A DNA stretch of 64,000 bases from assembly GCF_000186865.1 (NCBI RefSeq), contig NW_008705573.1:268685-332684 (forward strand), in the 5' to 3' direction. Positions 10,768-53,700 of the stretch are shown one piece after another. The notes beneath the pieces were generated by a model. It did not search any database and was not told the origin of the DNA. It saw nothing but the letters and a program-made list of their open reading frames with translations. Both the position numbers and the translations under genes were made by a program. How positions within the stretch are numbered: the first letter of the stretch is position 1; the number at the start of each line of letters is the position of its first letter. This DNA comes from Aureococcus anophagefferens (Eukaryota; Sar; Pelagophyceae; Pelagomonadales; Pelagomonadaceae).

Positions 10768-12065
10768 TTACGGCGCCTTCTTGTCCTTGAGGCGCTTGAG
10801 GAAGAAGCTCAGCGTCGCGTTGACGAACTCCGCGGAGACCTCGGAGAGCGCGTAGGCGCGGTTGAGCTCCTCGGCGATGGGCGACTTGAAGGGCGCGAGG
10901 CTGTCGCGCGCGATGGCCCGGAGGATCCCCAGCTCGAAGCCGCCGCGCCGGCCGATGGGCGCCGAGATCACGGACCGCCAGGCCGACCGCTGCGGGTCCA
11001 CCAAGAGGAAGCCGCCGCCCGAGAGGTAGCCGCCCACGCGGAGCATGGCGACGATCTGCGCGCTCTCGGCGCGCGACAGGCCGCTGACGCTGTCGGAAAA
11101 ATAGGCGTCCGTGAGCGGCAGCGGCACGGCGCGCTGCTCGAGGACCGTCGCGCCCGTCTGCGCCCAGGCGTGCTTGATGGACCGCGCCGCGCGCGCGACG
11201 GAGTCGTCGCGCGGCATGTGGCAGATGACGACGTTCGGCGCCTGGGCAGCACAAGAGTGATTCAACGTCGCTTCAACGTGAGTGTTCCGCGCGCGCGCGT
11301 TCCGGGAAAAGCATTCACGCTTCGAGACCGTTCCGAGAGATGATCGCTCGTCCAAAAATCAGCCGAAACGAGAGGAAAACGGCCGAGAAAGGAGCCTTTG
11401 AAGTTGGGAATTTCGCTCTCTTGTCCTGCCCTGTTCGGCGCGGGCGGCGCCGCGAGCGTCGCCTTGGCGCCGCCGTGCCAGCCGGCGCCGATGACGCCCT
11501 GGCCGCCCTTGAAGGCCTTGGTGACGCTCGACGTCGACAGGCCCGCCTGGTCCGTCATGAGCTGCAGGTGCACGCCGCGCACGGCCATCGACGGCGGCAG
11601 CGCCTTGGGCAGGATCGTCGCCGCGAAGCCCGCGCCGCAGCCGACGCCCAACGCGAAGAGGGGCACGCCCTTCCAGCGCCGCGCGCCCGTGAGCGCCACG
11701 AGGCCGTGGGCGACGAAGGGCCCGTCCTCGGGCTCCCAGCGCGACGACTTGCCGTCGTGGCAGCCCACGGCGACGGCCGCGAAGCCTTTGGCGAGCGCCG
11801 CGGCGACGATGGCCTTCTCCTCGGGCATGCCCGTGCATCTCTCGCAGGTCGCGCTCGCGTCCCACCAGGACAGCGCGCTCCGCCCGCCGCGGTGGAAGAG
11901 CACGAGGAGCCCCAGGGGCTGCTTGCGGTTCGCCGGCGCCTCCCAGACGACCTCGACGCCCTCGAGCACCTCCCAGGTGCCGCCGCGCAGCACGGGGCCC
12001 GCCGCGCGGCACCAGCGCCAGGACAGCGCGGCGAGCAGCCACCAGCCCGGCCTCGCAGTGCCCAT
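10768..12065 (-). CDS. Secreted alpha/beta-hydrolase-like protein, introner intron
   Basis: Exon 1 (12065-11442) begins with a signal peptide (WWLLAALSW) and encodes an alpha/beta-type core: VLFHRGGRSALSWWD, AKGFAAVAVGCHDG, then LFALGVGCGAGFA in the position of a nucleophile elbow but with Cys or Gly where Ser is usual. Exon 2 (11241-10768) continues with APNVVICHMPRDD, a strand-helix pair and a helical tail. The two halves join in phase 0 (ATLAAPP then APNVV) when introner A is removed as a 200-nt GC-AG intron, giving 365 aa. The family is not certain: the fold guess rests on the strand-helix rhythm and HRGG oxyanion-like motif. Tail-to-tail with the P4H-like gene, 9 bp apart. Confidence 0.7.
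11242..11433 (-). mobile_element. Introner element copy A, 192 bp
   Basis: On the plus strand it begins CTGGGCAGCACAAGAG and ends CTCTTGTCCTGCCCTG, an imperfect inverted repeat. The 8-bp target duplication TTCGGCGC flanks it at 11234-11241 and 11434-11441. In the host gene (minus strand) the intron is 11441-11242: its donor GC comes from the target duplication, and its acceptor CAG is the last trinucleotide of the element. Copies B and C have the same length and layout. Members of this type are called introners or introner-like elements. Confidence 0.95.
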
Positions 12066-12231
12066 AATTTTATTGAAAGCGACGGGCACTGAGCTCGGCT
12101 TGAAGTGCACTGCCAACCGCAGACATATATCCTTTTTCAACGCGTTGCCCCCTCAGCGCGTGGTGTGCCCCGCCGGCCGCGGCGTCGGCCCGTGCTCAAC
12201 GCGCGCCCCGCGGCGCCGTCGGCGGTGCGCC

Positions 12232-14163
12232 ATGGACGAGGTGGACCACATCATCGCGGAGATCCTCACGGAACGCAAGCACAGCGCCTCCAAAACGTCG
12301 CTGCTGCTCGAGACGAAAAAGCTGCGCGAGGCCTGGGACGCGCTCAACGCCTGGATCCTGGACCGCGTCATCCAGCGGCGGGGCGCCGCCGTGCCCAACT
12401 TCGGGAAATTCACGTGGCAGGTGCTCGGCGGCTTCACGCCCGCGGACCTGGACCCGCGCCTCGCGGGCAAGAAGGCCGCGAGCAAGATTCCGCTCCGGCC
12501 CGTGTTCATGTTCGCGGAGAACTTCTGCCGGAGCCACGGCCTGCCCTGGCGGCGCCAGAACGAGGCGGACCTCGTGAAGTGCGGCGACCTCGACTACAGC
12601 AACCTCGCGCTGCGCTACAGCTCCCACCTCACGAAGGACATGGTCTTCGCCGCGCTGCGGGACGTCACGCGGCGCGTCGGCGAGAAGATCGCGTCGGGCT
12701 TCGCGCTCCGGGTGAAGATGAGCGTCGGGTCCCTCGTCTGCGAGCACGGCAAGTGCCGCTTCGAGTTCGACGCGGCGTCCCTGGCCCCGCGCGCGCGCGA
12801 GCCCGCCGCGGCGCCGCCGCCGGCCGACGCGCCCGCGGCGGACGCGGCGCGGCCGGGCACCGTCGCCGCGAGCCGCCCGGCGTCCGAGGACAAATCCGAC
12901 GACGCCGGCGACGGCGGCGACGAGCCCCTGCCGGTGATCCCGCCGCCGAAGCCCTACGCGTTCACGTCGAGCACGTTCTATTCGACGCCCGCGGACGAGT
13001 ACGAACATCCCGACACGCCCGCGGAGTACCACAGCTCCGTGCTCGCCAAGACGAACGGCGAGATCATGCGCGACTCCACGGACGCGCTCCTGGGCATGCT
13101 CCCGACGAAGAACCACCTCAAGCCGTCGGCGACGTACTACCGGCGCGACCGCGACCCGGGCAAGCCGCTGCTCTCGGAGCTCAACGACAAGTGCAAGACG
13201 ACGGGCCTGCTCCAGGCCGAGTCGTCCGTCGCCGACGCGGCCTACGAGCGCCACCTCGCGTCCATCGAGCACGAGGCGAACCGCATCCAGGACGAGAAGG
13301 TCGTCTTCCAGAATTTGTTGGCCGAGGGCTACGCGGCCGACGCGGAGAAGCGGAAGAACTGGAAGCGCGCGAACCTCGAGCTCCAGGAGTACCTCCAGAA
13401 CCAGATCGACACCAAGGCCGTCAAGCACGCGCGCGAGAAGGAGATCCCCGAGGACGAGCTCAAGGAGCAGGAGGCCCTCGGCGCCATCGTCACGAAGAGT
13501 CTGGAGGCGTCCAAGGGCAAAACCTCCCGACCTGCGGACGGCGCGCCGCTCCGGCGGAACACGTCCGTCGCGGAGTCGCTCAAGCAGCCCATGCGGCCCA
13601 TGCTCGAGGGGCCCTTCAAGATGTACAACATCACGGGCTTCCCGACGCGGGGCCGCGCGGAGAACATCAAGGTCCACGAGCTCTGCGACGAGCTCGCGCG
13701 GTCCATCGACTGCCGCAAGGAGCGCGTCAAGAGCGAGCGCGAGGAGGTGTTGGAGGAGGAGCGGCGCTTCATCCGCCACGTCAACGACGAGATGTTCAAG
13801 AACAAGACGCTGGCGAAGCAGAAGCTCGACGCGGCGAACAACGAGCTCCTCCGGGCCTGGGAGACGTCGCAGCACGTCAAGAACTTGCAGCGGCTCCAGG
13901 GCTTCGGCGCGGACGCGATGCTGAGCTACGCCAAGTCCGCCCACCCGGAGGGCGACGAGCCCGAGACGCTCCGCCACCCGCCGACGCTCCCGCCCACGCG
14001 CCAGCTCGCCGCGACCATCGCGTCCGCGAAGGCCAAGGGCGTCGACCTCTCCGTGGGCTTCGACCCGCGCGACGCGGCCGCGTCCGGCGTCCCGGCGTCG
14101 AAGAAGGGCTCGAGCCTCATGGGCCTCTCCACCGACAGCCGCAAGGCCCTCATCGACGCCTAG
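12232..14163 (+). CDS. CCDC81-like protein with HU-type domain, 643 aa
   Basis: CCDC81 family proteins pair an HU-like N-terminal domain with coiled coils and are linked to centrosomes and cilia. Here the first 110 residues show the family pattern: a helix with WDALNAWILDRVIQRRGAAVP, then NFGKFTW and RPVFMFAENFC. A second HU-like half follows (about 115-190, LALRYSSHLTKDMVFAALRDV ... FALRVKMSVGSL). After a low-complexity Ala/Pro linker come motifs of the conserved middle region, and long charged coiled coils span about 330-580. Single exon; the ATG at 12232 is the first after the upstream low-homology stretch. Its presence suggests a flagellate stage or ancestry; that is inference. Confidence 0.78.
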   Translation: MDEVDHIIAEILTERKHSASKTSLLLETKKLREAWDALNAWILDRVIQRRGAAVPNFGKFTWQVLGGFTPADLDPRLAGKKAASKIPLRPVFMFAENFCRSHGLPWRRQNEADLVKCGDLDYSNLALRYSSHLTKDMVFAALRDVTRRVGEKIASGFALRVKMSVGSLVCEHGKCRFEFDAASLAPRAREPAAAPPPADAPAADAARPGTVAASRPASEDKSDDAGDGGDEPLPVIPPPKPYAFTSSTFYSTPADEYEHPDTPAEYHSSVLAKTNGEIMRDSTDALLGMLPTKNHLKPSATYYRRDRDPGKPLLSELNDKCKTTGLLQAESSVADAAYERHLASIEHEANRIQDEKVVFQNLLAEGYAADAEKRKNWKRANLELQEYLQNQIDTKAVKHAREKEIPEDELKEQEALGAIVTKSLEASKGKTSRPADGAPLRRNTSVAESLKQPMRPMLEGPFKMYNITGFPTRGRAENIKVHELCDELARSIDCRKERVKSEREEVLEEERRFIRHVNDEMFKNKTLAKQKLDAANNELLRAWETSQHVKNLQRLQGFGADAMLSYAKSAHPEGDEPETLRHPPTLPPTRQLAATIASAKAKGVDLSVGFDPRDAAASGVPASKKGSSLMGLSTDSRKALIDA

Positions 14164-15419
14164 GGCTGCGGCGTAAAACGTAGACTAGGGAACGAAGGGG
14201 AGACAAATCGATCTGCCGACGCCGATGTCCCTGCGAAATAATCACAACGCCGTCGCGCTGGATTATTTAATCTACGTCGGCTAGAAGGGACGCCGGAGGC
14301 TGGCCGGCGCCGGCAACCTGCGCGCCGATTTAATTCCATTTTAAATCAACCATAGCCATTGAATTTCGTCAACATTGACGACAACGATACCTCGACAGCC
14401 CGGTCCGCATCGCATCTCCGCATCGCTGCGCTCGACCGACGAGATGCTTGGTGAACTGTTGGACGTCCAGAGCTCCGCGAATATGAAGGGACGTGCAACG
14501 ATCCCAGTGGCTTCGAGGTCCGCAAACATGTGGGCGAGGCACCTGCGAAGACGCGACATCCAAACGATTGCGAGGTGGCGCAAACGGGCAGCTTCAGGGG
14601 GTGCAGTGAGGCTCGGCAGCGTCCCCCGACCCAATTTCGGGTCGCTTTCGAGCCACAGAGCGTCGGGAATCGTTCGTCATGGGGGCCACCAGATGCTCTC
14701 GCGACAGCTCCTCGGCTCGAGTCGATTTGATCGAGATCATCTCAGCGCCTCCGACGGGCGCGCGGCGCCGCGGGTGACACGGTGCTCACCGCGCAATGAA
14801 TGAGACGTTCGGTGCGCCAGTGCTAAGCAGAGACCTCCGGGAAAACATTCCAGGGGTGGCTTACCCAGGGTCTAGCGCACCGCTCGACCTCTGGAACTAA
14901 GTTGGGCCCCTCGTCGGTCGCCCACCATCGTTAACGGCCGTTCTCGTCATCCACGGGCTGCCCCGACGCGAACCAAGTTGCTCGCCATCGACCGGTGGTC
15001 TTTCCCGAGCGACTCGCAGTCGGGCCCGAGGCGCGGCATGGTCCACAGACCGAGCGCCGCGCCAAGTCCTGGAACCGCTGCATCGGACGCCCAGAAAACC
15101 GTGGTCGCAGAAGATACCTTGACTGCATGATTCTGTTTTTCAATGGCCATGGTTGGTCCAAAAACACGATGATGGCATATTAAATCATGCGCCATCTGGC
15201 AGTACGGGGACCGCGCAGGTCGCTCTTAGATTAAATCGTAGCCCGATCATCAGAAAACGGGACCTCCGAAACCATAGCGCAACTCTGACTTCGTATTAAA
15301 CCCCCTTAGAACCTAAGATGACGTAAAACGGGGGCGATCGTGGCAACGCGCGCAGGGCGTCGGCGACTCACGCTCGTTGAAGCGGTGGTTGCAGTTCTGA
15401 GCAAGAGAATCGCACGAGC
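14164..15419. other. Gene-poor 1.26 kb, no supported gene
   Basis: This is the longest gap between genes. Composition is closer to AT-neutral, with short open frames on both strands (for example 14375-14803 plus and 14341-14634 minus) that overlap and lack domains. No tRNA, rRNA or terminal inverted repeat was found by eye. It may hold regulatory DNA for the DUF4239 gene or decayed sequence. Confidence 0.5.
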
Positions 15420-16487
15420 ATGGCCTGTGCAAGCAGCTCTCGATCGCGCTGGCTCGCGGCGGTCTTCGTCGTCTCCATCCATGGCTGCGCGGCGTACCGG
15501 CCGCCGGTCCTGCGGCCGCCCCGGCTCGCGCAGCTCCGCGTCCGCGCCGCCGCCGTCGCCGTCCCCAAGCACCCAAAGACCAACTCCGTGGGCCTGCTCC
15601 GGCGCGTCCGCGGGTCGTCGGCGACGGCGCGCGCCGTGTTCATCCCGGCCTTCGCCGTGGCCGTCGTCGCGTTCCAGAGCTTCACCTACCTCTGCGTGGA
15701 GACGGGCCACTTCCTCGCGGCGCTCGGCGCGGCGACGAACGTCGGCGACTCGATGATCGTGCAGCAGACGCCGGACGTGCTGGGCATCATCTTCTCCGTC
15801 TTCGCGTCGAACACGTTCACGGGCCTCTACGAGCAGCAGGAGCTGGCGCACGTCGCCGTCTACGCCGAGGTGTCCGTCGCGCGCGCACTCCTCGAGCAAT
15901 TGGTGCTCGTGCTCGGCGGGCCGCGCGAGCCGCGGTGCCGCGCGGCGCTCGCGGCCTACGGCCGCTACCTCGCGGACCTGCGGCTGGACGTCGGCGACCC
16001 GCGGCGCGGCCCCGCCGCGCGGCTCCACCTCGGCGCGCCCACGCCGCGCGCGGCGGCCGTCGCAAAGGGCGAGGGCCGCTTCGAGGACCCGCTCGAGGAG
16101 CTGCTCTACGCGACGTCCGTGGGCCTGCCGTCGCCCCACGTCTACGCGACGGTCAAGGACGTGCGCGCCGCGCGGTCGCGGCGCCTCGGCGCCGTCCAGC
16201 GGAAGCTGCCGGGCTTGCAGTTCGGCATGCTCTACGCGCTCGGCGCGTCGCTCCTATCGTCCTTCGTCATCACCGTCGCGGGCTACGCGCCGGGCGCGAA
16301 TTTGGCCATGGAGAAGTGGGGCTTCGCCGTCCTCGCCTTCGCGCTCGTCACGTGCCTCCGCGTGCTCGAGGACATCTGGTCGCCGACGTCCGGCGCCTAC
16401 TCCGTGAGCCGCGTGCTCGACACCATGCTCGCGGGCCTCGAGAGCGAGCTCGAGGAGCGCCTCGCCGAGGAAGACGGGGGGTTCTAA
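15420..16487 (+). CDS. Bestrophin-like DUF4239 membrane protein, 355 aa
   Basis: The N-terminus has a signal-like hydrophobic segment ending CAAYRPP, reminiscent of a stramenopile plastid leader, then a Pro/Arg-rich stretch. Hydrophobic segments lie at about 78-97, 112-128, 266-285 and 295-318. The region between carries a long soluble insertion rich in Arg and Ala. The conserved pattern near the C-terminus (RKLPGLQFGMLYALGASLLSS, then EDIWSPTSGAYSVS) fits the DUF4239 bestrophin-like family found in plants, algae and bacteria. These may act as anion channels, but function is unproven. Single exon, ATG at 15420. Confidence 0.68.
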   Translation: MACASSSRSRWLAAVFVVSIHGCAAYRPPVLRPPRLAQLRVRAAAVAVPKHPKTNSVGLLRRVRGSSATARAVFIPAFAVAVVAFQSFTYLCVETGHFLAALGAATNVGDSMIVQQTPDVLGIIFSVFASNTFTGLYEQQELAHVAVYAEVSVARALLEQLVLVLGGPREPRCRAALAAYGRYLADLRLDVGDPRRGPAARLHLGAPTPRAAAVAKGEGRFEDPLEELLYATSVGLPSPHVYATVKDVRAARSRRLGAVQRKLPGLQFGMLYALGASLLSSFVITVAGYAPGANLAMEKWGFAVLAFALVTCLRVLEDIWSPTSGAYSVSRVLDTMLAGLESELEERLAEEDGGF

Positions 16488-16613
16488 CGTGGCTTCGCGA
16501 CGTCGGTGCGAGCGAGGAGACGTGCGAGGACGGCCCGCGCGAGGGCACGCGCCGCGCGGCACATCGCATTCAATTTGAGTGCACCGTGGCGGCGTTTGCC
16601 TCGACCCAGAAGC

Positions 16614-18313
16614 ATGGTGATGGGGGCTGCAGCCCGGCTCCGCCTCGCGCTCTTCGCCGCCGCCGCCGCCGCTTGGCGGATCTGCGACGTCGCGGACCAC
16701 GGCGCCGTCGGCGACGGCCAGACCGACGACAGCCGCGCGCTGCGGAGTGCGCTCGCGGCCTGCGACGAGGTCGTGATCCCGCGGCACCGCTCCTGCGTCA
16801 GCGGGCCCCTCAACCTCACGTCGAACCAGGTCCTGCGCGTCGACGGCGCCCTGCTCGCGAGCACGATCCCGGCGCAGTACCCGCTCATGGAGCCCGTCGT
16901 CGGCTACGGCTGGAGCCGCGACACGAACTGTTTTCCCGCGAACTCGACGCGCCGCGGCTTCCGCGAGGGCGCGCGCCGCCACGCGCCCGTCGTCGGCGCC
17001 TACAACGCGTCGAACGTCAGCGTCGTCGGCGGCGGCGTCATCGACGGGCGGGCCGGCGAGCCCCTGGGCTGGTGGGACAACTGCACGCGATGCCGCGGCG
17101 CGAGGCCGCCCGACCCGGCGTTCCCGCCCGACGAGGCCTTCTGCCTCGCCGCGAGCCGGCCCAAGCTCCTCGAGTTCCAGTACGTCACGGGCCTGACCGT
17201 CGCCGGCAACGCCGTCGGCGACCCGCTCCACCTCAAGGACTCGCCGTTCTGGACCCTCACGCCGAGCTACTCCCGAAACGTCCGCGTCCGCGACCTCCGC
17301 ATCACCGCGCCCATCCGGACGCCCGGCATCGGCAACACGGACGGCGTCAACCTCGACTCGTGCCGCGACGCGCTCGCGGCGCCCGGCGCCCCTCTCGAAA
17401 CCGAAAGCTCCCGAAGCTTTTTGCTCGCCGAGCCGCGCCCCCCGGCCGGCGGGCCTGTACCGAAGAGCGAGACCGACCGTCGACCGTCGCTCCTCGCACG
17501 CGCGTTCCCCTCGTTGGAGCGCGCGTCGCGACGGCCGCCGACACAGGTGGAGAACGTCTACGTCAACAACAGCGACGACGGCGTCTGCATGAAGAGCGGC
17601 CTCGACGGCTTCGGCATCAACCTCGCGATCCCGACGGAGGACGTGCTCGTGCGGAACATCACCTGCGGCGACCGGCGTGCGTGATTTGGGCCGGGAAACG
17701 AACAGACGACCGCGTAGGCGACGACGCGGGCCGCGGCGGCTTCGCCGTCGGGTCCGAGATGAGCGGCGGCGTGCGCAACGTGACGTTCCGCGACAGCGTC
17801 CTCGGCGCCGGGCCGCAGAGCCGGGGCATCGACGTCAAGACGAGCGTCGGCCGCGGCGGCTACATCATCGACGTCACGTTCGAGAACATCCGCGCGCCGT
17901 CGCCCTTTCCGAAGGCGAACGTGAACGTCCACTCCGCGCTCCGCGACGATCCCGACGTCCCCGGCGACGACCTCGTCCCGGTCATCGGGAACCTGCGCTT
18001 CGCCAACGTCTCGGGTCCGAGCGGCTGCGGGTTTTCCTTCTGCGACAAGGCGAACGGCAGCGCGTGCTACAACCTCGTCGTCGAGGGCGACAGGCCCGAC
18101 GGCTGCGTCGCGCCGGACCCGGGGCCGCCGCTGCCGGCCATGACCTTTTCCTGCAAGCGCGTGGCTCGGACGCTCTTCGGCGAGATCACGCTGCCCTGGC
18201 CCGTGTGCGTGCCGCGCGAGGCGCCCGTGAACGTGTACCGCGACTACCCCAACTGGGGACCCGCGCGCGTCGCCTACCCCTCCCTCGGCGCCTGCAAGGC
18301 CGCGTGCCATTAG
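16614..18313 (+). CDS. Secreted GH28 polygalacturonase-like enzyme, 495 aa
   Basis: GH28 enzymes hydrolyse pectin-type galacturonan with a right-handed beta helix. Visible landmarks are DVADHGAVGDGQTDDS near the mature N-terminus, NTDGVNLDSC (catalytic NTD), NNSDDGVCMKSG (the DD pair) and GRGGFAVGSEMSGG, which replaces the usual GHG histidine motif with GRGG. A signal peptide covers the first 25 residues. Three exons are proposed: 16614-17375, 17547-17676 and 17718-18313. Intron 1 uses a GC donor, giving CRDAL then VENVYVNN, which aligns with the family. Intron 2 is only 41 nt with a GT donor. The loss of the GHG histidine could alter activity. Its stop overlaps the next gene's stop by 4 bp. 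Confidence 0.88.
17376..17546 (+). other. GH28 intron 1, GC-AG
   Basis: The donor GCGGCG at 17376 and acceptor ACACAG at 17541-17546 join DSCRDAL to VENVYV in phase 0 and keep the spacing of the GH28 core. A GT donor would need about 30 extra residues. Confidence 0.65.
17677..17717 (+). other. GH28 intron 2, 41 nt GT-AG
   Basis: The frame stops within the segment; removing GTGCGTG...CGCGTAG restores ITCGDR-RDDAGRGGFAVG. The length of 41 nt is among the shortest introns in the window. Confidence 0.7.
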
Positions 18314-20709
18314 GAGCTGGGCCGGAGGTCGAGGTCGTCGAGGAAGAGCGCGCCGCCGCCGGCGACGTGGGATTTGACGGAGAAGAAGAGGGGCGAGAAG
18401 TCCGTGAAGTCGCCGAGGTCGTGGTCGAAGGCGACGGTCGCGACGCAGGTCGCCCAGGCCGTCGTGAGCGCGGCGCCGCACGTGTTTTTCAGGATTTTCC
18501 CGCGGAGCGCGCCCGGCGCGAGCGCGATCCCGCCGGGCGAGGCCATCGCGCTGTACGTGAAGGCGTAGGACGACGCGTTCAGGGCCGTGACGAGGAGGGG
18601 CACGAAGACCTGGACGTCGCCGCCGGCGAGGTTCACCTTGGCGGCGTAGCGGCCCGACTTGGGCGCGGCCGTCGACGACGTCACGCGGCAGCGGTCGTCG
18701 ACCATGGACGTGTTGTGGCAGTCGTAGCCCGAGGCCCCGGGCCGGAACGTGAAAAACTGGCCCGGGTTGTTCAGGTCGATGAGCTCGGGCTGCTCGAAGT
18801 CGCCGTAGGCCACGAGGTTCGCCGCGTCGGGCGCCGGCGCGACGCAGCCGAGGCGGTAGACCTTGGCCTGGCGCGCGTCCAAGAAATCGCGGAGCTCGTT
18901 CGCGACGAGGGCCACGTCGTAGGCCTCGTCGAAGATGCGCGTCGCCGCGTCGAACGTCTTCCCCACCGCCGGGGGGAGGCGCGCGGCGAACGCCGTCGGG
19001 ATCGACGCGGAGTTGACGACGACCGCGTGGCCGCACAGTTCGCTTTCCGCGTACCACGACGCCCAGATCTTGACGGGCCCGCCCGTCGCCGGGTTCACCG
19101 CGCCGCCCGCGTCGGCGTCGAGCGCCGCGCCGCCTTGAAAGAACGACGGCAGCAGCTCGCCCGTCATCGCCGCGAAGCGCGACGCCGCGTAGGACTGGCT
19201 CCATTTCACGGCCTGCACGGGGTTGTAGACGAAGAAGTTCGTGTGGAACATGCCCGCGGTCAACGCGCCCAGATACGCGTGCGCCTCGACCGCCGGCTGC
19301 GACCCCAGCGCGTGCGGGTCCGGCATGCCCACGAGCGGCTCGTAGGTCATGGGGAACTCGCGGTACGCGGCCATCGTCGACATGCCGCCGCCGTAGGCCT
19401 CCTTCATGACGACGTCGATGCCCAAGCCCGCGGCCTCCTCGGACCAGTACCAGGTCTCGCCGCAGGCCACCGTGCCGAACATGACGTGGTAGGGGTCCAG
19501 GTCGTAAATCAAAGCCTTGATCTTTGCTAGGGCGACGTACTCCGCGGGGCCGTACGCGTCCAATTCGGTCATGTGGCAGCAGTCGTCGCACGCGTACCAG
19601 CCTCCCACGGCCGGGTGGTCCTTGAAGGCCGAAATGGACGCGCGCACGGCCGCCCAGGTCTCGGCGTAGTCGGGGATGATACCCGTGTGCGAGTCGGGGA
19701 TCTTCGCGACCGCGCGCGCGAGCTTGTCGACCTCGACGTTGCACAGGACCGCGAGCCCCGCCGCGTGCGCGTCGTCCAAAAATTCGAAGCCGTGGGTCAG
19801 GTTGGAAAAGCCGCCGGAGCGCACGAAGGTGTGGCCCTGCTTGCCCCACTCGGCGACGAGGGACGCCTGCTTCCTGACGACGACGCCGTCGTCGAAGTTG
19901 TCGCCGGGGACGGGCAAACCCGCGGAGATGTGGGAGTAGTGCCCCGCGAACCAGCCGCTCATGGCGAAGGGCACGCCATCTCGCAACAGGGCCCGGCGCT
20001 CGTGGTCCACCTGGGTCACGACGACGGACGTCACCGCCGGCGGCGGCGGCGCCCGGTGCAGCGCGCGCTCGTGCGCGTAGGTCTCGCCGCCGCAGGCGAC
20101 TTGTATCGTCGCCGCGCCGTAGTAGGACGCGGGCAGGCCGTCCAACGAAAAGCCGAAGGACGCGACGGCGGTGTCCGCGAAGGTGTGGGCGACGTCGACG
20201 AGGGTCGCGGTGCTTGTTCTCGCGGAGACGCGGCAGCTTTTGCCCGCGAGGCTGCCGTCGACGGACACGAGCAGGGCCCCGGACGCCTCGCGGACGTAGG
20301 GCCGGCGGTCGAAGGCGGGCGCGAAGGCCGCGTAGTGGTCGACGAAGGCGTAGCCGAAGGGCGACGCGAACTTCTTGGGCGTCGTGCCGAAGCAGTCCGC
20401 GTCGTCGCGCGCGAGGCACACCGTCGTGTTTCCGGCGGTGACGACCGGCGGCACCGCGCACGTCGCGGCGCCGTCGTCGAGCACCGTCGCGTTGGCGTAG
20501 ACGCGCACGCCGCCCTGGCGGAACCCGGGCTGCGGCAGCACCGGCGAGAACTGGGCGACGCGCGAGAAGACGCAGCGCAGGGGACCGGCGAAGGGCGGGT
20601 CGCCGGGCCCGCGGCGCAGGGTCAGCGTGCCGCCGGTCTCGACGGCGAAGCGCCACGGCTCCACGGTCACGGCCGCGGTCATCGTCGGGATGAGCAGCAG
20701 CGCGAGCAT
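18310..20709 (-). CDS. Secreted glycoside-hydrolase-like protein, 799 aa
   Basis: The Met at 20707-20709 opens a signal peptide (MLALLLIPTMTAAV). The first 250 residues look like beta-sandwich sequence with paired cysteines. From about residue 250 the pattern suits a TIM barrel of glycoside-hydrolase type: FAMSGWFAGHYSH, FLDDAHAAGLAVLCNVE, HPAVGGWYACDDC, then GIDVVMKEAYGGGMS. The C-terminal 200 residues (LVAYGDFEQPELI ... SGRYAAKVNLAG) resemble a carbohydrate-binding jelly roll. Asp and Glu in ACDDC and KEAYGG are candidate catalytic acids, but the family is not identified. Next to the GH28 gene, it suggests a small polysaccharide-use pair; that link is inference. Single exon. Confidence 0.68.
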   Translation of the reverse strand: MLALLLIPTMTAAVTVEPWRFAVETGGTLTLRRGPGDPPFAGPLRCVFSRVAQFSPVLPQPGFRQGGVRVYANATVLDDGAATCAVPPVVTAGNTTVCLARDDADCFGTTPKKFASPFGYAFVDHYAAFAPAFDRRPYVREASGALLVSVDGSLAGKSCRVSARTSTATLVDVAHTFADTAVASFGFSLDGLPASYYGAATIQVACGGETYAHERALHRAPPPPAVTSVVVTQVDHERRALLRDGVPFAMSGWFAGHYSHISAGLPVPGDNFDDGVVVRKQASLVAEWGKQGHTFVRSGGFSNLTHGFEFLDDAHAAGLAVLCNVEVDKLARAVAKIPDSHTGIIPDYAETWAAVRASISAFKDHPAVGGWYACDDCCHMTELDAYGPAEYVALAKIKALIYDLDPYHVMFGTVACGETWYWSEEAAGLGIDVVMKEAYGGGMSTMAAYREFPMTYEPLVGMPDPHALGSQPAVEAHAYLGALTAGMFHTNFFVYNPVQAVKWSQSYAASRFAAMTGELLPSFFQGGAALDADAGGAVNPATGGPVKIWASWYAESELCGHAVVVNSASIPTAFAARLPPAVGKTFDAATRIFDEAYDVALVANELRDFLDARQAKVYRLGCVAPAPDAANLVAYGDFEQPELIDLNNPGQFFTFRPGASGYDCHNTSMVDDRCRVTSSTAAPKSGRYAAKVNLAGGDVQVFVPLLVTALNASSYAFTYSAMASPGGIALAPGALRGKILKNTCGAALTTAWATCVATVAFDHDLGDFTDFSPLFFSVKSHVAGGGALFLDDLDLRPSS

Positions 20710-20745
20710 GGATGGGCCGCGCGCGAGCATGGATGGGCTGCGTCC
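20700..20745. repeat. Tandem repeat of about 20 bp at divergent promoter
   Basis: The unit GCGCGAGCATGGATGGGC is repeated back to back at about 20700-20740, spanning the start codon of the GH-like gene (minus). It creates two in-frame Met codons on the minus strand, at 20709 and 20730. Confidence 0.7.
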
Positions 20746-20815
20746 AGCGGCTGGCCCCATCGGAACAAAGCTCGATCGGCGAGCGACCGCTGTGGACGGC
20801 CTGCGCGCAGTGGGC

Positions 20816-21535: not shown

Positions 21536-21583
21536 GAAGACCAACCCACCCACTCCCCTCCCCGATAAGACCCTAGACACGTA

Positions 21584-37526: not shown

Positions 37527-37532
37527 TAGATT

Positions 37533-44403: not shown

Positions 44404-44595
44404 TATTTGACCATCGCAAACACTTCAATGACCGAGGCAACCGATCTTCAATTCTGGCCCAACCCATGCGGCATGGTTGCTGGCCGCTGTCGGTGACGGG
44501 TTAGACGGGCTGCATCGCCGCGACTACATCACGGCGACCCGCGCGGTGGCAACCTCTGGTAGAGGGGCAGGCGCGACGCTCCAGTGGCAGCAGCT

Positions 44596-46059
44596 ATGGG
44601 GGGCTCCGCCTCTCGTCTACCCGACGACGCGCTCGGACTCTGCGCGTGGTGGACTGACAAGGCCGGCTTCTTGAGCCTGCGTGCCGCGTCGGTCGCTGGT
44701 GGTGGGGCGGCGCGGCGTGCGATCAGTTTATGCACGTACTCGAGGCTGCGCCGCATTCGAATTCTCGGTAAACACGCGAGGAGAATTGAGGACTCGGAAG
44801 ACCTTGTCGTGATGGACGCGCACCCCCGCGCCATGGCCATGATGGGCCGCGTCTTTGGCGCCGTCTGCGAGCACCTCACAGTGGATGGCGGCCTCTGGAA
44901 CGACGACAGAATGAACCGCATTCCGCGAGAGAGGGTCGATGCGATTCGTTCCTTTGTTACGTCTTACACCAACGGCGGCTTGAGAGAGTTGGACATCGAA
45001 AGAGTCGAGCTTTCATCGGCCGCCCTGGTCGAGATCTGTCAGGCCTCGCCTAAGCTGACGAGGCTTCACGCGCTTGCGGATAAACTTGAGCCGATGAGGC
45101 TACTTCCCTCGGATGCTGAGTGCGTCGTCATAAGCGCCGCATGCCCCGAGCTGAGTGATGTCCGCTTCGCGAGCAGCGAGTTCAGCCCCGCGGAGACCTG
45201 GAGCATCCACTTTCCAAATCTTAGCTGTTTATGCGTGACTCTCGAGTACGTGCCAGACCCGCAATACGTGCCGACGCGGCTCGATGCGATTTCAGCAGCG
45301 GCGCGCTCTACGAATGCGACCGAGCTCGAGATCGCTGGAGCCCACATCATGCCCGAGCTGATTGACGCGATTGTCGGCACGCCTTTCGGCGATCGCATCG
45401 AGACGTTTGGCTCCATCCCCGTCGAATGCCACATGGACGTCGACACCAAGCTCGAGCCCGAGGCTGTGCTAGCCGCGGCGCGAGGATTTCCGCGACTACG
45501 GACTTTGACGATTCCCCAAGGTTCGACGATGGGCGGCCCCGACTTCTATGCGAAGCTCGCACGCGCAAGTCCCGACCTCGAGCACCTGAGTTTGCGCGAC
45601 AACTTAGCGACCACCGACGCGTGTATAGTTGCTGCATGCGAACACCTCAGCTTGGAGCGTTTTGAATTCCGAGACTTCTCTGCGAGTTCGCGCATCGTCG
45701 ACGGCATCCTCGCGGGCAAGACAAGATGGACGCTCCGCTCGCTCATCATAGAGAACATCGACGGTGGTACGGATGGGAGCCAAGCTCGTGCCGTCGACGT
45801 GCTGCGGCTCGTGAATGGCTGTCCGAAGCTCAAAACATTCGACTGGCTTGAGCTCGGGCATGATGATCTTGGCGGGTTTGAGATGCGTCCCGAGACCTGC
45901 GGTCAGATCGCGAAGGTCCTCAGACGCCGCGGAGGGCAGGTCCTGCAAGAACCGGTGAGTGGCGACGAGAGGGACGAATCGGTGAGGGTAGATCCAAAGA
46001 CGCGCTTCCTTGGTGCAGACCACTGTGGAATCCTCTTTGCCAGTGAAGATCTATGGTAA
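44596..46059 (+). CDS. Leucine-rich-repeat-like protein, 487 aa
   Basis: From about residue 100 the sequence shows irregular Leu-rich units of 25-30 residues (LRELDIERVELSSAALVEIC, LEHLSLRDNLATTDACIVAAC, LKTFDWLELG), as in F-box/LRR or ribonuclease-inhibitor-like proteins. The first 60 residues (LPDDALGLCAWWTDKAGFLSLRAAS) resemble a divergent F-box. Substrate binding in ubiquitin ligation is possible but not shown. The ATG at 44596 is the first in frame; codons are less GC-rich than in neighbours. Single exon. Confidence 0.6.
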   Translation: MGGSASRLPDDALGLCAWWTDKAGFLSLRAASVAGGGAARRAISLCTYSRLRRIRILGKHARRIEDSEDLVVMDAHPRAMAMMGRVFGAVCEHLTVDGGLWNDDRMNRIPRERVDAIRSFVTSYTNGGLRELDIERVELSSAALVEICQASPKLTRLHALADKLEPMRLLPSDAECVVISAACPELSDVRFASSEFSPAETWSIHFPNLSCLCVTLEYVPDPQYVPTRLDAISAAARSTNATELEIAGAHIMPELIDAIVGTPFGDRIETFGSIPVECHMDVDTKLEPEAVLAAARGFPRLRTLTIPQGSTMGGPDFYAKLARASPDLEHLSLRDNLATTDACIVAACEHLSLERFEFRDFSASSRIVDGILAGKTRWTLRSLIIENIDGGTDGSQARAVDVLRLVNGCPKLKTFDWLELGHDDLGGFEMRPETCGQIAKVLRRRGGQVLQEPVSGDERDESVRVDPKTRFLGADHCGILFASEDLW

Positions 46060-46227
46060 GCCCGACTAGGACCCTCGAGAGCTAGGGAAAAAAGGAGAGG
46101 CGGGCGCTCGGTCGTCACAGGCCCAGCCAATCCAGGCCCTCGCGCGCAAGTTCGCGCTAGCGCGCGCGGCGGAACCACCTTGGACACAAAGTTTCCCCAG
46201 GTGCTGCCCTTTGCGTCCGTCCAAACG

Positions 46228-47422
46228 ATGTCGGCGCAGGTAGGAGAGGACAACGAGAAGTTCCGGGCTGCCCTCGCCGAGGCCTTGGCGCTGGCCAAGG
46301 ACCCGCGGCACGTCATCGCGCTGTCGCGGGTCTACGCGCACACGGTCGGCGCCCTCGAGCACACGACGGACGTGTCGCAGCAGTTTCGCGAGATGGACCT
46401 CGACCGCGCGGACCGGCGCATCCAGAGCGACCTCGAGGAGACGCGGCGGCGGCGCGTCGTCGTCGACGTCGATGCCGACGAGGACGACGATGTCGATGAA
46501 GACGACGAGATCGACGACGACGACGACGACGACGAGGTCGGGGTCGGCGGCGCCGCGTCGTACGACGACGACGGCGGCGGCTCGTACTCGGCGTCGGAGT
46601 CGTCGGGCCGCGACTACGCGTCCGGCGACGCGACGGAGGCGATCCTCGAGTACGAGGCCGCGGCGGCGCGGCGCGGCGCGTCGCCGAAGCGCCGCTACCG
46701 GGCCGCGTCGCCGCGCCGCGCGGGCCTCGAGGGCAACCTCCGGGACCGCGAGCGCGAGTACCGCCAGCTGCTCGCGCGCGCGTCCATGGAGAGCGCGCGC
46801 GGCGACCCGGCGGGCGTGGCGCCGTCGGCGAAGACGAGCCGGGCCCTCGTCGGCGCCATCCAGCGCCTCGAGCGCAGCTCCGACGAGCTCCGGAGGCGCC
46901 GCGCGCGGCGTCCCGGCCCGTTACCCGCGAGACGCCCCGCGCTCCTGCAGGTACCAGGCGCGGTCCGACGAGGCGGCGGCGCTCAAGGCGAAGCTCGCGG
47001 CGCGCGAGCGCGAGCGGGGCCGGCGGCGCGTCGAGGCGAAGCGCGCGAGCGCGCTCGAGAAGGCCGAATTGAAGGGCGCGCTGCGGCGCGCGCGGCGCGA
47101 GACCCGCGACCACCTGCGTACGGCCGACGCCGTGAACCGGCTCCACCGGGGCGTCGCGACGGGGGGCGCGGCCGCCGAGGCGCGGTCCTACGACGCGGCG
47201 CTCGCGCTCGAGGCGCTCCGGCGCCTCGACGCGCCGCCCCGGCGCGCAGGCCAGTCGCGCGCGGCGGCGTCGCGCGCCGAGACGCGCGCGCGGGGCAAGC
47301 TCGCCCTCGCCGCCGCCGTGCCCGCCATCTACTCGCCCGACTCGACGATGCGCAAGAAGGCCGCGCTCAAGATCCTCCGCGACTTCAAGAACAGCCTCGG
47401 CGGGCCCGGCCGCTACCCCTAG
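46228..47422 (+). CDS. Coiled-coil protein of unknown function, about 379 aa
   Basis: Exon 1 begins at ATG 46228 with a helical segment, EALALAKDPRHVIALSRVYAHTV, then a very acidic Asp run (about 80-110), a Ser-rich stretch and a coiled coil (LRDREREYRQLLARASMES). Exon 2, in another frame, continues with YQARSDEAAALKAKLAARE, long Arg/Ala/Glu coiled coil, and ends ILRDFKNSLGGPGRYP at TAG 47420-47422. The join needs phase 2 and the acceptor CTGCAG at 46945-46950. The donor is uncertain: GCGCCG at 46896 gives a 55-nt intron. No family is recognised. Convergent with the next gene, 28 bp apart. Confidence 0.6.
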
Positions 47423-47450
47423 CGACGGCGTAAGCTCGGCGACCCGCACC

Positions 47451-50400
47451 TTACCCGTCGAAGGAGATGGAGCTCGCGTCGGACTGGGTCTCGCGCGGGC
47501 TGTTGGCGCCGCGGTGGCGCCGCGCGGCGTCGTCGGGCGCGACCGTGTGGTCGTCGTCGGGCCGCGGCGCCGGCGCGCCGCGCGCGGTCAGCGGCGGCGC
47601 GCGGTCCCAGGGCTCGTCCTCGGCCATTGTCCAGTGGCGCCGGCAGGACTCGCTGTAGGTGAGCTTGCACCGCGTCGCCTTCAGGATGACGACCGGAAAA
47701 GTGTCCGCGTCGTCGATGGCCGCCGTCTGGTTCACGTCCGTGTACTCCGCGTCCGCGAGGCCCTCGATGGTCTCGTGGAGCTTCGCGTAGTCCGGGTCGT
47801 GGTCCGGCCCGTTGGTCCACTGGACCAGGCGCAGGAACTCGTCGCAGTCGAGGCCCGCGTCGCCCTCGTCGAAGCGGTAGAACGCCTCCAACAGATGGTG
47901 CTCGTGGTGCTCCACGGCCAGGCACTGGTGCCGCAGGATCAAAAAGGACAGGTCCACGAAGTCGACGCCCGACGTCGCGCCGGCCGCGGCCCCTGTGTCC
48001 TTCTGGGCCACCTGGGCGACGACGGGCAGCTCGCCGACGGCGTCGACGAGGTCGTCGACGGCGAAGGGGTGCATCATCTGCCGCAGGCAGGGCCCCGGCT
48101 CCTCCGGCGCCGCCGACGCGTTGATGGCGTCCTCGACGTGGACGCGCTTCAACACGGCCACGGAGTGCGCGGACAGGTAGTCCGCGGGGCCCTCCGAGAA
48201 CTCCTTCGACGCCGCGAAGCACCGGCCCATGAGCGAGAGCCAGGCCTCGGCGACCCAGGGCACGACGGGCGCCGTGTCGCCGTTGGCGAGGTCGACGTCC
48301 TCCATGCCCATCAAAATCGCGCAGAGCTGGACGCGGCGGTTCCGCGCGCGGTGCGCGTCGATGGCCGCGAGCGTCTCGTGGATCTTGACCTGGGCAGCAA
48401 AAGAGAGATTCAACGTCGCTTCAACGCGAGTGTTCCGCGCGCTCGCGTTCCAAAATAGACATCCACGCTTCGAGGCCGTTCCGAGAGATGATCGCCCGTC
48501 CAAGAATCAGCCGAAACGAGTGGAAAACGGCCGAGAAAGGAGCCTTTGAAGTTGGGAATTTCGCTCTCTTTTGCTGCCCGGATCTTCACGTTCATCTGCT
48601 TCCGCGTGATGATCTGCGGGTTCGACTTCCAGTAATCCTTCACAAAGTCGGCGAACCGGCCCACGGGCGCGCCGTGGCGCACGGCCTCGGCGTCGAGCGC
48701 GATCTTTTTTTCCAATAAGTCGTGGACGAGCTCGCACGTCTTGCCCTCGGAGAGCACGTGCGTGCTCGCGCGCTTCCGCGGCCCCGCGGCGCTGGACTTC
48801 TTCTTCCCGTCGTAGAAGGACTTGCCGCCGCCGCTCCGCCCGGCCCACTTCATGCCCTTCAAGTCCGAGAGCTCGAGCTTCGCGGCCTTGCGCGACGACG
48901 ACTCGGAGCCGACGGAGCCGCCGTCCTTTTGCGCGTCCGGCGCGGGCGGCGGCGCGTGCGGCCCGCTGCTTGTGCTGGGACACGGCGGCGGCGACGAGCG
49001 ACTTCATGTCGTCGCCGATCTCGCCCAGGGCGCCCGTCGCGCCCTTGATGTCCGTCTGCGACGACGAGGAAGAGACCGCGACGACGGCCGTCTGCGTCGA
49101 CGCGGCCATGCCCGCGTGGCGCCGCGCGACCTCCTCCTCGACCTCGGCGAGCTCCTCGCGCAGCCCCTCCTCCTCGCTGCGCAGCTCCTCGTTCTCACGC
49201 GCGCAGCTCCGCGGCCTCCTCCTCGAGCTCCCGGTTCCGCCGCTCGAGCTCGTCGTTCTCCTCGACGTTCTCCACGAACAAGACGCGCTGCTCGTCGCGC
49301 GCGGTCTCGAGGTCCGCGATGCGCTTCGTCAGCTCCTCGACCTCGGCGCCGTGCCTGTCCCGCAGCTTCTTGACTTCGCGCTCCTTGGCGTGGTGCTCCT
49401 CGTCGACGAGGGACCGCTCCTGGAGGTGGCGGAGGCACGCGTGGTGCTCCGGCGCGGCCCAGCCCAGCGACTCGTTGACGGACTTGGCGAAGGCGTCGTT
49501 CCGCGCGTAGCGCGCGACCTTGCGGCAGAGCTCCTTGGCGCTCAGCGACGGCTGCAGCAGCAGGAAGAGCGACGGGATGCGGTCGATGGGCAGCCGGTGC
49601 TCGCGGCTCAGCTTCGACATGAAGCAGAACGTGCACCGCGGGTGCTCCTCGAAGCCGCAGGCCGCGCAGCCCGCGCAGCGCTTCGCGTGCGTCAGGTGCT
49701 TCACGAGGCGCGGGTCCGCGTTGAGCGCGTCGAAGCGGCTCCGGAGGGGGACCACAAAGTCCGTGCCGTCGACGGAGTCGCCGTCGGGCTGGAAGCCCGT
49801 CAGACCGCCGATGCGGTTCCCCGCGAGCGTGTGGTGGCTCGCCGCGACGGAGTGGGGCCGCGCCGCGGAGACGGGGCTGAAGGCCGACGCGAAGGAGCCC
49901 AGGTCGCTCACGGCGTCCCAGTGCGGCGGCGTCCGCGCGCGGCCCGGCGGCGCCGCCTGGCTCGTGCCCGGCCGCGAGCCCGCGCGCGACCCGGCCCGGC
50001 TGTGGAAGGGGTCGACCGTCGACGGCCGGCTCCAGTCGATGGACGCGTTGCCCACGCTGAACAGCGAGTCCACGAAGGACACGCCCGACGCGACGGACGC
50101 GCCGTCGGCCTCGGCGTCGTCCTTGTCCGCGAACGTGTTCCCCCCCTCGACCCGCAGGAGCTGGGCCGGCGTCATGTGCTTGTGGCGCTGGACGGCGGCG
50201 GCGCGCTGCTTCGCCTCGCCGATCATCGTCGCCAGGCCCCGCTGGTGGACCTTGATCTCCGTCTTCCGGAAGTCGCGGAGCCCGGGAGACTTTTCCGCGC
50301 GGAGCTCCGAGAACCGGAGGCCCGCGGACGACGCGCGCTGGTCGATGGCGCAGGGCGCCTTCAGCGAACTCCGGGCCGGCCCGCCGTGGCGCACGGCGCT

Positions 50401-50586
50401 GCGCCCGGCGTTGGCCAGCGTCGCCTCCTCGAAGCGCTTCGCCGCCTGCCGCGCCGCGTCGGCGAGCTCCGGCGACCCGAGGCGCCCGTCGGGCGCGGGC
50501 CGGTCCGTCGCCGTCGCGAACTTGGGCGAGAAGCGGTAGTCCGGCAGCTCCATGGACCCATGGGAGGGCGAATTGGTCCGGCGCAT
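47451..50586 (-). CDS. Large coiled-coil/EF-hand-like protein with introner B, frame breaks
   Basis: From ATG 50584-50586 the protein has a low-complexity N-terminus (RAGSRAGSRPGTS), a Cys cluster (CAGCAACGFEEHPRCTFC) near 315, possibly zinc-binding, and a coiled coil (EVEELTKRIADLETARDEQR). Two one-base frame changes interrupt it, near 49195 and near 48960. After the second, KGMKWAGRSGGGKSFYDG leads to RKQMNVKI, where introner B sits. Exon 2 (48389-47451) holds helical segments and an EF-hand-like LLEAFYRFDEGDAGLDCDEF. Removing the introner as 48589-48390 gives QMN-VKIHETL in phase 0. Roughly 978 aa if repaired. The function is unknown. Confidence 0.6.
48390..48581 (-). mobile_element. Introner element copy B, 192 bp
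   Basis: The ends are CTGGGCAGCAAAAGAG and CTCTTTTGCTGCCCGG (plus strand). Flanking octamers ATCTTGAC (48382-48389) and ATCTTCAC (48582-48589) match at 7 of 8 bases. The host intron is 48589-48390 on the minus strand, 200 nt. Its donor GTGAAG is the duplicated target and its acceptor CAG is the element end. This is the one copy of three with a GT donor. Confidence 0.93.
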
Positions 50587-50722
50587 GCTGGCTCTCTAGG
50601 GGCTGCGCATTGCGAGAGCTTGGCGTTGGTTACGATGCAAGGTTATGCTTGCACGGCATCGTTGGCATTTGTCACGGGCACGCCATACCGAAGCCCGACC
50701 CCTAGGCTAGCTACATTACCCC

Positions 50723-53700
50723 TCACAAGCACCGCGCCGGCACGACGACGGTGAAGCGCGTCGGCCCCGCGGCCGGGGCCCCCGGCGGCCGGCGGAAGGC
50801 GAGCGTGAGCCCGCCGCGGTGCGAGCCCGCCGTCGCGCGGCGCCGCGGCTTGCCCGGCGCGTCGCTCCGGGCCACGGCGGCGCGCGCGTCGAAGAGGGCC
50901 AGCGGCGGCACCTGGAGCGGCGCCATGAGCGGCAGCTGGGCCTTGGCCGGGTCCGTCGCGCGGAGCCGCGGCGGCAGCGGCCGCCCGCGCGCGGTCGTCT
51001 TCGCGTTCGACGGCCGGTAGCGCAACAGCTGCCCCAGCGACGGCCCCGGGGCCGCGACGGGCCGCGCGCCCGCCGCGGCCCCCTCGGGCGCCGCCGCCGC
51101 CGCCGCCGCGGGCGCGCCGGCGGCGAGGTCGACCATGGCGAGCGCGACGGCCGGCGGAGTGACCGTCGACGCGTCGTCGAGGGCCACATCCACCAGCGAC
51201 GGCGGCGCGTCGTCGGGCGCGGCGCGCGCCGCGGCGACCCAGCGCGGCGCCATGTCGAGGTGGAAGCCGCGCCAGCGCACGCGCCGCCGCGCGCGGCCGC
51301 CGCGCGCGGGCGCGGCCGCGGCCGCGTCGCCGAGCCCCGCGCGGCGGATGCGCCACTCGTCCGCGTCGGCCGTGCGGTCGTCCCAGTCCGGGCCCCGCGC
51401 GATGGGCGACCCCTTCTCCGCGGGCCGCCGGCTCCGCAGCGCGTCCTCGCGCGGGCTCCCCCAATCGTCCCAGTCGTCGGCCGCGTCCGGAGCCGGCGGC
51501 CGCTTCCGAGCGTTATTCTGCGTGACGTCGCCGGCCCGCTTCGCCTCGTCGCGGGCGGCGCGCGCGCGCTGGGCCGGCGACCGGTTCGCCTCCTTCAAAG
51601 ATCGCAGCGACGCCTCCGCCGCGGCGCTTTTGACCGACGCGTCGTCGTCGACGACGGACGTGTCGCCGAGCGCGTCGAAGCGCGGCAGCTCGACCCGCTC
51701 GCCGCCGGCCTCGAGCGTGCGCGCCTCGCGGTCGAGGGGCTCGCCCGGCGGCGGCGTGCCCCGCCGCGACACGGAGACGACGGGCGGCGACGCGACGCGG
51801 ACGCGCACGGGCGCGTCCGGCGACCGCGCGGGCGCCGCCTCGGGCGTCCGAGCGGGCGACGGCTCCGGCGACGGCTCCGGCGACGGCTCCGGCGACGGCT
51901 CGTCCTCGCTGGCCTCCTCGGAGCCGCTGCTGCTCTCCTCGTCGGAGCCGCGGTCGGAGCCGGACCCGCTCCGGCTCTCGTCGACGTCGATCAGGTCGTC
52001 GTGGTCCTCGAGGTCCGTCGCGATGCGCAGCGCGTCGAGGCGCGTCACCTGGGCCATGGGCGCGTAGCAGCGGCGGCCGGACCCGTCGGCGACCGTCGTC
52101 GCGCGGAGCAGGTCCTCCGCGATCGCGCACCGCGCCGCGTGGCCGCCGCGGCACCACGCGGCCAGGTTGCCCCGCGTCGCGGCCACAAAGTCGACGCGGC
52201 TCAAGGACTGCTGCTCGATGACGAACCAGGGCAGGTCCGCGTTCGACGCCGCGTCGAAGAGCTCGTCGTCGAAGAGGCAGCGGAAGCAGCGAAGTTCGAA
52301 GGCCGCGTACGCGCGCGTCGCGATCGCCGGCGGCTCGAAGGCCCCGCCGAGCGCCGACCGCCAGTCGGGCCCGAGCACTTTCGCGTCGATGCCGTGGAAG
52401 GCGAGCCAGAGCGCGTCGAGCGCGTCGGCGAGCACGGGCGGCGGCGGGCCGCGGCGCCGTCGCGGCGGCGCGCGCTTCCGCGCGGACTCGCGGCTCCGGT
52501 CTAGAATGGACCGCCGCGCCGGCGCCGCCGCGGCGCGCTTCGAGGATGATTTCGGCGGCGGCGTCGGGATGACGACGAGCTCGAGGAGCGCGAGCGACGT
52601 GCGCCGCCGCGTCGGCACGCCCTGGACGTTGAGCGTCTGGCTCGCGCGGCGGTGCCTGGGCAGGACAAGAGAGATTCAACGTCGCTTCAACGTGAGTGTT
52701 TCTCGCGCGCGCGTTCCAGAAAACGCATCCACGCTTCGAGATCGTTCCGAGAGATGATCGCTCGTCCAAAAATCAGCCGAAACGAGTAGAAAACGGCTGA
52801 GAGAGGAGCCTTTGAAGTTGGGAATTTCGCTCTCTTGTCCTGCCCTGGGCGGTGCATGTCGGAGATGGACATGCGCCGCCGCGGCGCGCCGGACTGGGTC
52901 GAGTCGTCGTCGACGTAGTCGCGCTGCGCCTGCTTGATCACGTCCATGGCGTCGCCCAGCGTCGCGACGCCGCGATGGGGCTCCGCGGCGTGGACGGACG
53001 CGATGCGGTCGAGGGGCCGGTAGGCGCCGTCCTCGACGATGCGGTCGTAGAGCTTGGAGAGGAAGGAGATGTACTCCTCGATCTCCGCGCTCTCCGTCCA
53101 GATGTCCACCGTCTCGAAGAGCGTGTCGCGGAACTTGACGCGCGAGACCGTCTCCGCGTCGCCGACGTCCTTGTCCATGTCGTCCGCGACGACCTCGCGG
53201 CAGCTCTCGACCTCGAAGTCGTCGGGGTCGAAGAGGGCCTTGCAGAGGATGATGTTAAAGTCGAAGAGCTGCGACCGCGAGATATTTTCGTCGGTCGTCG
53301 CGAAGGTGTCGAAGTAGCGGTCGAGCCAGCGGATGACCTCCGGGTGGGACCGGTTCTTGCGCCGCAGCGCCAGGGCGTCGGACCGGTACATGGTCATGTC
53401 GCCGTCGCGCTGGTAGTCGAGCGTCGACCGCTTCTTCTTCTCCTCGGCCGCCGACGCCGCGCCGTCGCGCCGCGGCTTCGCGCCGCGGAAGCCGCCGCCG
53501 CTCCGTCCCGAGCCGCCGGAGCCGCCGGAGCCGCGGCTCCGCTCGGAGCCCCGCGACGACAGGCGCCGCTTCTGGCGGCTCGACGACGGCGAGTCGCCCT
53601 TGATCGGCGACTGGGACCGCTCCCAGGGGCTCGGGCTCCCCTGCCGCTCCGTGCGGAACGACTCGGCTTTGAGGCCCACCTTGGCCAGCAAGTCGTCGGC

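Follow-up and report, generated by a model that had tools for sequence, protein, structure and literature searches.

How can one and the same sequence come to fill an intron in several unrelated genes? This question is raised by a 64,000-nt stretch of the Aureococcus anophagefferens genome (contig NW_008705573.1, positions 268,685 to 332,684; the whole stretch is referred to as the window), in which three closely similar segments of 192 bp each interrupt a different gene. Our analysis indicates that these segments, designated family A, are very probably introners, i.e., short non-autonomous terminal-inverted-repeat DNA transposons of a kind described in this species, whose downstream end would provide the acceptor site of a new intron and whose duplicated target would provide the donor. 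The features considered are as follows:

11242-11433, minus strand: putative introner of family A, copy 1 (192 bp); with 11434-11441, a candidate 200-nt GC-AG intron in phase 0
11434-11441, minus strand: donor copy of the copy 1 target duplication (GCGCCGAA in gene sense); partner copy at 11234-11241
48390-48581, minus strand: putative introner of family A, copy 2 (192 bp); with 48582-48589, a candidate 200-nt GT-AG intron in phase 0
48582-48589, minus strand: donor copy of the copy 2 target duplication (GTGAAGAT in gene sense); partner copy at 48382-48389, with one mismatch
52656-52847, minus strand: putative introner of family A, copy 3 (192 bp); with 52848-52855, a candidate 200-nt GC-AG intron in phase 2
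52848-52855, minus strand: donor copy of the copy 3 target duplication (GCACCGCC in gene sense); partner copy at 52648-52655

The likeness of the three copies in length, sequence and inverted ends, as described in the initial annotation, was borne out: all are 192 bp long, with pairwise identities of 90.0-93.2% (E values of 2e-80 to 4e-71), and no fourth full-length copy is found within the 64-kb window. Read in gene sense, each locus consists of an 8-bp target, an element that starts with CAGGGCAG (CCGGGCAG in copy 2) and ends with CTGCCCAG, and again the 8-bp target, the family ends being CWGGGCAGSAMAAG. Positions 3-18 of copy 3 form a perfect inverted repeat, while copy 1 has further mismatches (11/13). 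In the predicted fold of the copy 3 RNA (z -3.65), the ends pair in a 16-bp stem, and neither the terminal AG nor the donor stretch is base-paired. The 8-bp target duplication that had been claimed for each copy is exact for copies 1 (TTCGGCGC/TTCGGCGC, 8/8) and 3 (GGCGGTGC/GGCGGTGC, 8/8) but not for copy 2, where the flanking 8-mers agree at seven of eight positions (ATCTTGAC/ATCTTCAC). Because of this single mismatch, copy 2 is absent from a de novo scan of the window for inverted ends bordered by identical 8-bp direct repeats, which yielded 12 matches, copies 1 and 3 among them, as compared with 0-2 matches in each of five shuffled sequences. The window has a G+C content of about 70%, and of the 31 merged stretches (120-380 bp) where this value dips below 56%, three are the copies and the others may be other introns or intergenic gaps.

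The three host genes all lie on the minus strand. Excising 200 nt, namely the element and one target copy, fuses open frames in phases 0, 0 and 2 for copies 1, 2 and 3, whereas unspliced read-through in the same frames comes to a stop codon after 59, 59 and 56 codons, respectively. A codon-usage score trained on the window peaks in the expected sense frame on either side of all three junctions. The 600-nt flanks of the three copies have only matches of 17-34 nt in common, the three host proteins do not match one another and a Pfam search assigned none of them to a family. With frames that join and with unrelated flanks and proteins, the earlier proposal that the copies fill 200-nt introns in three different genes thus agrees with what we found. 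The accompanying claim that excision restores the protein in phases 0, 0 and 2 stood in part, since the frames are open at all three loci and exact joins exist in the databases for copies 1 and 3, but no such support was obtained for copy 2.

These database joins deserve a closer look. The spliced copy 1 protein matches P0001 (ENA contig, 1,536 nt) with 99% identity across the whole query, and AAPP|APNVVICH is joined there exactly. P0002 (hypothetical protein JL721_5196, Aureococcus anophagefferens) has near-identical exons and carries RAGQESEIPNFKGSFLGRFPL, which is the translated introner, at the copy 1 site; it seems that this gene model uses the predicted correct acceptor together with a false GT donor inside the element and misses the GC donor. 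Other public models of GC-donor introner genes may share this fault, of which one case was observed. P0010 likewise runs into the copy 1 element, and the more distant relatives P0003-P0009 and P0011 are, as judged by eye, uninterrupted at this site. For copy 3, SDMHRRASQTL is joined exactly in P0015 (ENA contig, 3,725 nt), which in addition contains an insert of 64 residues that follows EPHR and precedes GVATL; some of the insert matches translated introners of a second family, family B. No family B-like sequence is found at the corresponding site in the window, which is uninterrupted near 52986, and this is an occupied/empty difference between isolates, as expected of mobile elements. Viral contigs contained neither a family A element nor a relative of P0001, although kin of the genome from which the window derives may be left out there.

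To place the three copies in context, we considered the genome as a whole (49,050,692 bases in 86 contigs). The 192-bp query gave 1,924 first-look candidates, and each of the 40 best that were scored spans at least 190 of the 192 bases. The exact 16-mer CAGGGCAGSAMAAGAG occurs 819 times and complete elements with CAG...CAG ends number 995, with none of either in the controls. Complete elements with CTG...CAG ends number six (12 matches, the pattern being its own reverse complement), and those with CAG...CTG ends were not found in the genome. As exact ends were required, these counts of complete elements should be considered lower bounds. The element is directly followed by GC or GT in 980 of the 995 complete CAG...CAG copies. 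At 995 complete copies in 49 Mb, the density is about 1.3 per 64 kb, and the three copies in the window are therefore ordinary and near the average. The idea of a very active recent burst gains little from this density, from a mean divergence from the consensus of 4.3% for sampled copies in the standard body orientation and 7.7% for inverted ones, or from the copy 1 insertion being shared with the annotated P0002.

Detailed statistics were based on a sample of 121 different full-length matches, each flanked by 320 nt or more on both sides and taken from the window and from 120 fetched loci (L001-L120). These loci represent 30 of the 40 best-scored matches and 30 + 60 of the 100 listed exact-16-mer matches, ten not having been fetched. 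The sample excludes partial copies, matches at the edge of a locus and repeated entries of one copy. It should be noted that the variation at the CAG start is underestimated, as an exact CAG start was the criterion by which the loci of 86 of the 121 copies had been picked. For eight inverted copies, the CTG...CTG ends decided the turning before coding was scored, whereas the flanks of L110 had already scored as antisense when this copy was turned. The target register was shifted in four of the 121 copies. The genome search that had been suggested as a check indeed finds many further copies with matching target duplications: the two target copies agree at 8/8 positions in 102 of the 121, at 7/8 in 14 and at fewer in 5, while target copies from shuffled pairs of loci were identical in 17 of 2420 cases. 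Excising one target copy and the element leaves a continuous reading frame in 112/121 (111/121 with the eight inverted copies turned but not L110), with junction phases 0, 1 and 2 found 49, 28 and 35 times. If both target copies were retained, only 1 of the 118 junctions with both flanks scored as sense would be in frame, and translation through the unspliced element runs into a stop in 105 of 111.

The splice sites that would result were then considered. The initial annotation had the acceptor CAG as the element end and the donor as the duplicated target, and the sample points the same way: an AG lies at or within one base of the element end in all 121 copies (in two of them after a one-base register shift), the target starts with GC or GT in 120, and the 980/995 genomic copies followed by G and a pyrimidine (GY) fit this assignment of the predicted sites. 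In gene sense, the downstream inverted end is typically CTCTTKTSCTGCCCAG, that is, a pyrimidine-rich tract and an AG. Donor dinucleotides are GC in 74 copies (61%), GT in 46 and GA in one (69 GC, 43 GT and 9 others before turning and register shifts). As GC is 3.8 times commoner than GT in the exon flanks (frequencies of 0.163 vs 0.042), acceptance per available site is about 2.3-fold higher for GT than for GC. The single GA donor compares with 8 expected, and GG was not seen among the 121. Relative to exon composition, the information at donor positions 3-8 does not exceed 0.11 bit in this sample.

The orientation of the element body behaves differently from that of its ends. The claim of a constant orientation relative to transcription holds for the three window copies but not for the family, as the body is inverted relative to the gene in 9/121 sampled copies and, as judged by eye, in 31 of the 100 listed complete CAG...CAG copies. 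Read along the gene, all nine nevertheless have CAG...CAG ends, with a one-base shift needed in one, and a target that starts with GY, and the frame is kept in all eight inverted copies that were turned by their ends alone. It is the downstream inverted end, not the body, that is the predicted acceptor, and the polarity of the ends appears to follow the gene rather than the body. The consensus ends are inverted repeats of each other except at base 2, where both have an A in gene sense. The body orientation would be irrelevant since the same acceptor module is present, inverted, at each end, and it is the A at the second-last downstream base that matters. The simplest account would start from ancestral CAG...CTG ends, a T-to-A change at either of them having made a 16-nt acceptor module consisting of the pyrimidine-rich tract and the AG. 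The non-acceptor end varies (CGG in two and CCG in one of the 121, in a sample biased toward an exact CAG start, and CTG in the six complete elements), yet CAG...CTG was not found, which is what selection on the acceptor would produce. Among those six elements (L121-L126), the 8-bp duplication is exact in three, 5/8 in one and 1/8 in two when no register shift is allowed. A tree of the 121 full-length bodies requires two orientation changes and does not reject a single clade of the nine inverted copies (p-AU 0.325). A tree of 78-base pieces requires 12 orientation changes but has little signal; it comprises 146 rows, R_L060_119 and R_C1_2539884 having been dropped from 148, and L097 was entered twice (also as C2_736410).

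Family B, in contrast, is symmetric in its ends. Its elements are about 203 bp long (CTGTGTGGAAWTC...GAWTTCCACACAG), with 288 complete copies in the genome when exact ends are required, and they have a 54-bp core of 80% identity in common with family A. With ends of CTG...CAG, an AG is offered in either orientation. The fetched loci contain 13 copies, in six of which the reference body runs with the gene and in seven against it, and for all 13 the strand that scores as coding agrees with a splice-competent orientation (competence exists both ways in two, and one was scored on one flank only). Their target copies agree at 8/8 in 10, 7/8 in 2 and 6/8 in 1. One should consider, however, that these 13 copies are biased toward genes, as all come from loci that had been fetched on account of family A. 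Divergent copies with mixed ends (e.g., CTGTGCCGGAAAC...GTTTCCTGCCCGG) and the central core that the two families share were also noticed at L005 (~2400-2540) and L026 (~560-730), and this core may have been kept while the ends changed. A further element, D, lies in the window at 54398-54729, inside an exon of a plus-strand ankyrin-repeat gene; it is 332 bp long, with 14-bp perfect inverted ends (CAGTGTCGATTCCA) and an 8-bp duplication (ACGCGGAT). Since D lacks an AG at its end, it is not an introner of type A or B. It has six full-length genomic copies, and as three of these are 100% identical on different contigs, it was recently active.

Taken together, a course of events can be proposed in which a transposase acting in trans would insert the 192-bp element into an exon and double 8 bp of the target, as the 8-bp duplications suggest. 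The downstream inverted end, with its pyrimidine-rich tract and AG, would then be used by the spliceosome as an acceptor, and the upstream target copy, where it starts with GC or GT, as the donor, such that removal of 8 + 192 nt would restore the mRNA. If only splicing insertions survive in exons, this would explain why GY follows the element in nearly all complete copies.

Some points weigh against family A being introners that act in this way and need to be considered. The use of the elements in splicing is a prediction from their sequence. Nine of the 121 copies lack one continuous frame (in six both flanks score as sense but in different frames, and in three one flank scores as antisense). 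For copy 2, both database relatives touch the element, as P0013 starts in it and P0014 runs on into it. Either transcripts or element-free alleles may underlie P0001 and P0015, as an exact restoration fits both readings; moreover, P0015 retains the family B insert and is therefore not a fully spliced sequence. As to the transposase, miniature inverted-repeat transposable elements (MITEs) of the hAT superfamily have an 8-bp target duplication and ends that begin with CAG. Family A is alike in both respects, but a search of the genome gave no match to the hAT domain PF05699, with the control also silent. A six-frame search, made independently of gene models, gave no match to PF18758 (KDZ), again with silent controls, or to PF10551 (MULE), which did find matches in 4 of 14 control genomes; no transposase was found in these searches. 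No longer element with family A ends was found in 90 fetched loci, although a rare long one may exist elsewhere. These loci contain 93 matches to the 5' end, of which 85 lie inside full-length copies; of the eight remaining ones, L060 is cut by the locus edge, and L068, L071, L073, L089, L100, L116 and L120 are partial or altered, L120 having one end only.

Other explanations for similar introns in different genes were weighed against the same data. Gene duplication is a general route to similar introns, which would then be inherited from one ancestral gene; here, however, the flanks share hardly any sequence, the host proteins neither match one another nor belong to a Pfam family and the phases differ. 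The lack of relatedness around the three loci thus speaks against duplication, and we consider its probability to be close to negligible. Introns could also have spread as RNA, by reverse splicing into another transcript followed by copying into DNA, and it is true that this predicts what is seen in nearly all recognizable copies, namely that they look splice-competent, lie in sense and reside within coding sequence. Yet in such a process the 8 nt of the old locus would travel along with the intron, whereas the first 8 nt of the intron match its own downstream exon (exactly in 102 of 121) and rarely that of another copy (17 of 2420 shuffled pairs). As the inverted ends and the two body orientations also fit DNA transposition, spread as RNA is highly improbable. 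Much the same low probability applies to the copies being ordinary MITEs that inactivate the genes, with the in-frame junctions being accidental. Element D, which sits inside the ankyrin gene with no usable terminal AG, is an example of the kind, but for family A the frame being kept in 112/121 and GY in 980/995 are far from chance, and the exact exon joins in P0001 and P0015 would not be expected.

A different matter is whether insertion itself is directed to transcribed exons in the sense orientation, being coupled to transcription or guided by chromatin, rather than random and then filtered by selection. Copies outside a splice-competent context are rare, as reflected by the above counts of GY and of continuous frames, and selection alone would not make copies outside sense exons so rare, since intergenic copies should be neutral. 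About 74% of the 300-nt steps of the window score as coding, as compared with 94% of the copy flanks at the same threshold, although this coding fraction derives from this one window and from a score trained on it. The 15 of 995 copies without GY leave room for about 2% of non-genic copies if dinucleotides there are exon-like, while about a quarter of the window is not scored as coding. Still, a plain preference for GC-rich, open or nucleosome-free DNA would also favor exons, and the sense-only orientation is explained by the loss of non-splicing copies. We thus regard directed insertion as unlikely. By the same token, only a tentative suggestion can be made that insertion is coupled to transcription or to the coding strand, which, together with the gene-sense CAG...CAG polarity, would perhaps imply a strand-aware route to the target.

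The preferred reading, of family A as introners made by DNA transposition, matters because transposon-driven intron gain is a leading account of how new introns arise in bursts. Huff, Zilberman and Roy reportedly described the introners of A. anophagefferens and Micromonas pusilla in 2016 as cases in which the transposon brings one splice site and the duplicated target the other. Family A can be seen as a natural mutagenesis experiment, in which about a thousand exon 8-mers were tried as donors by one spliceosome. Among the 121 sampled survivors, G-C or G-T suffices, GA is almost never accepted and positions 3-8 are barely constrained, and the tally clearly illustrates how the end of a transposon can serve as a splice site. 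This also bears on why GC-AG introns are so common in A. anophagefferens (39.6% of introns) and M. pusilla, a fact called 'an enigma' in 2011 (PMC3033335), as GC-rich exons supply GC starts to introners.

Finally, we compared family A with known systems, relying on the passages of the cited papers that concern introners and the host genome. Figures on donor choice, end polarity and the symmetric family B were not met in the open-licence literature to that extent, and earlier publication is possible. The genome of A. anophagefferens CCMP1851 is given as 49.9 Mb with 70.5% G+C (PMC11237714). For protists, Gozashti et al. (2022) describe some introner families with target-site duplications in which the element brings the 3' site and the duplication supplies the 5' site (PMC9860276, Fig. 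2B), and report enrichment of introners in genes in 161 of 175 genomes. The Aureococcus sp. family shown there (Fig. 2F) differs from family A in that both splice sites lie within the element and the mRNA is lengthened by 12 nt, whereas family A would bring the acceptor only and add nothing. GC donors reach up to 50.0% in the families of that study, as compared with 61% in the family A sample. PMC7789003 terms the splice motifs of A. anophagefferens introners canonical in the relevant passage, while 74 of the 121 sampled family A copies have a GC donor. The initial annotation was right that introners are known in Aureococcus: those of A. anophagefferens are described as always having direct repeats and inverted ends of constant length (PMC7789003) and as having a characteristic length of about 210 bp (PMC9481584). 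Family A is alike in species, in its length of about 200 nt, in its inverted ends and in its direct repeats, and no conflict was found. The window elements match these descriptions and thus belong to a known class of element in a host already known for it, such that the finding itself is not new.

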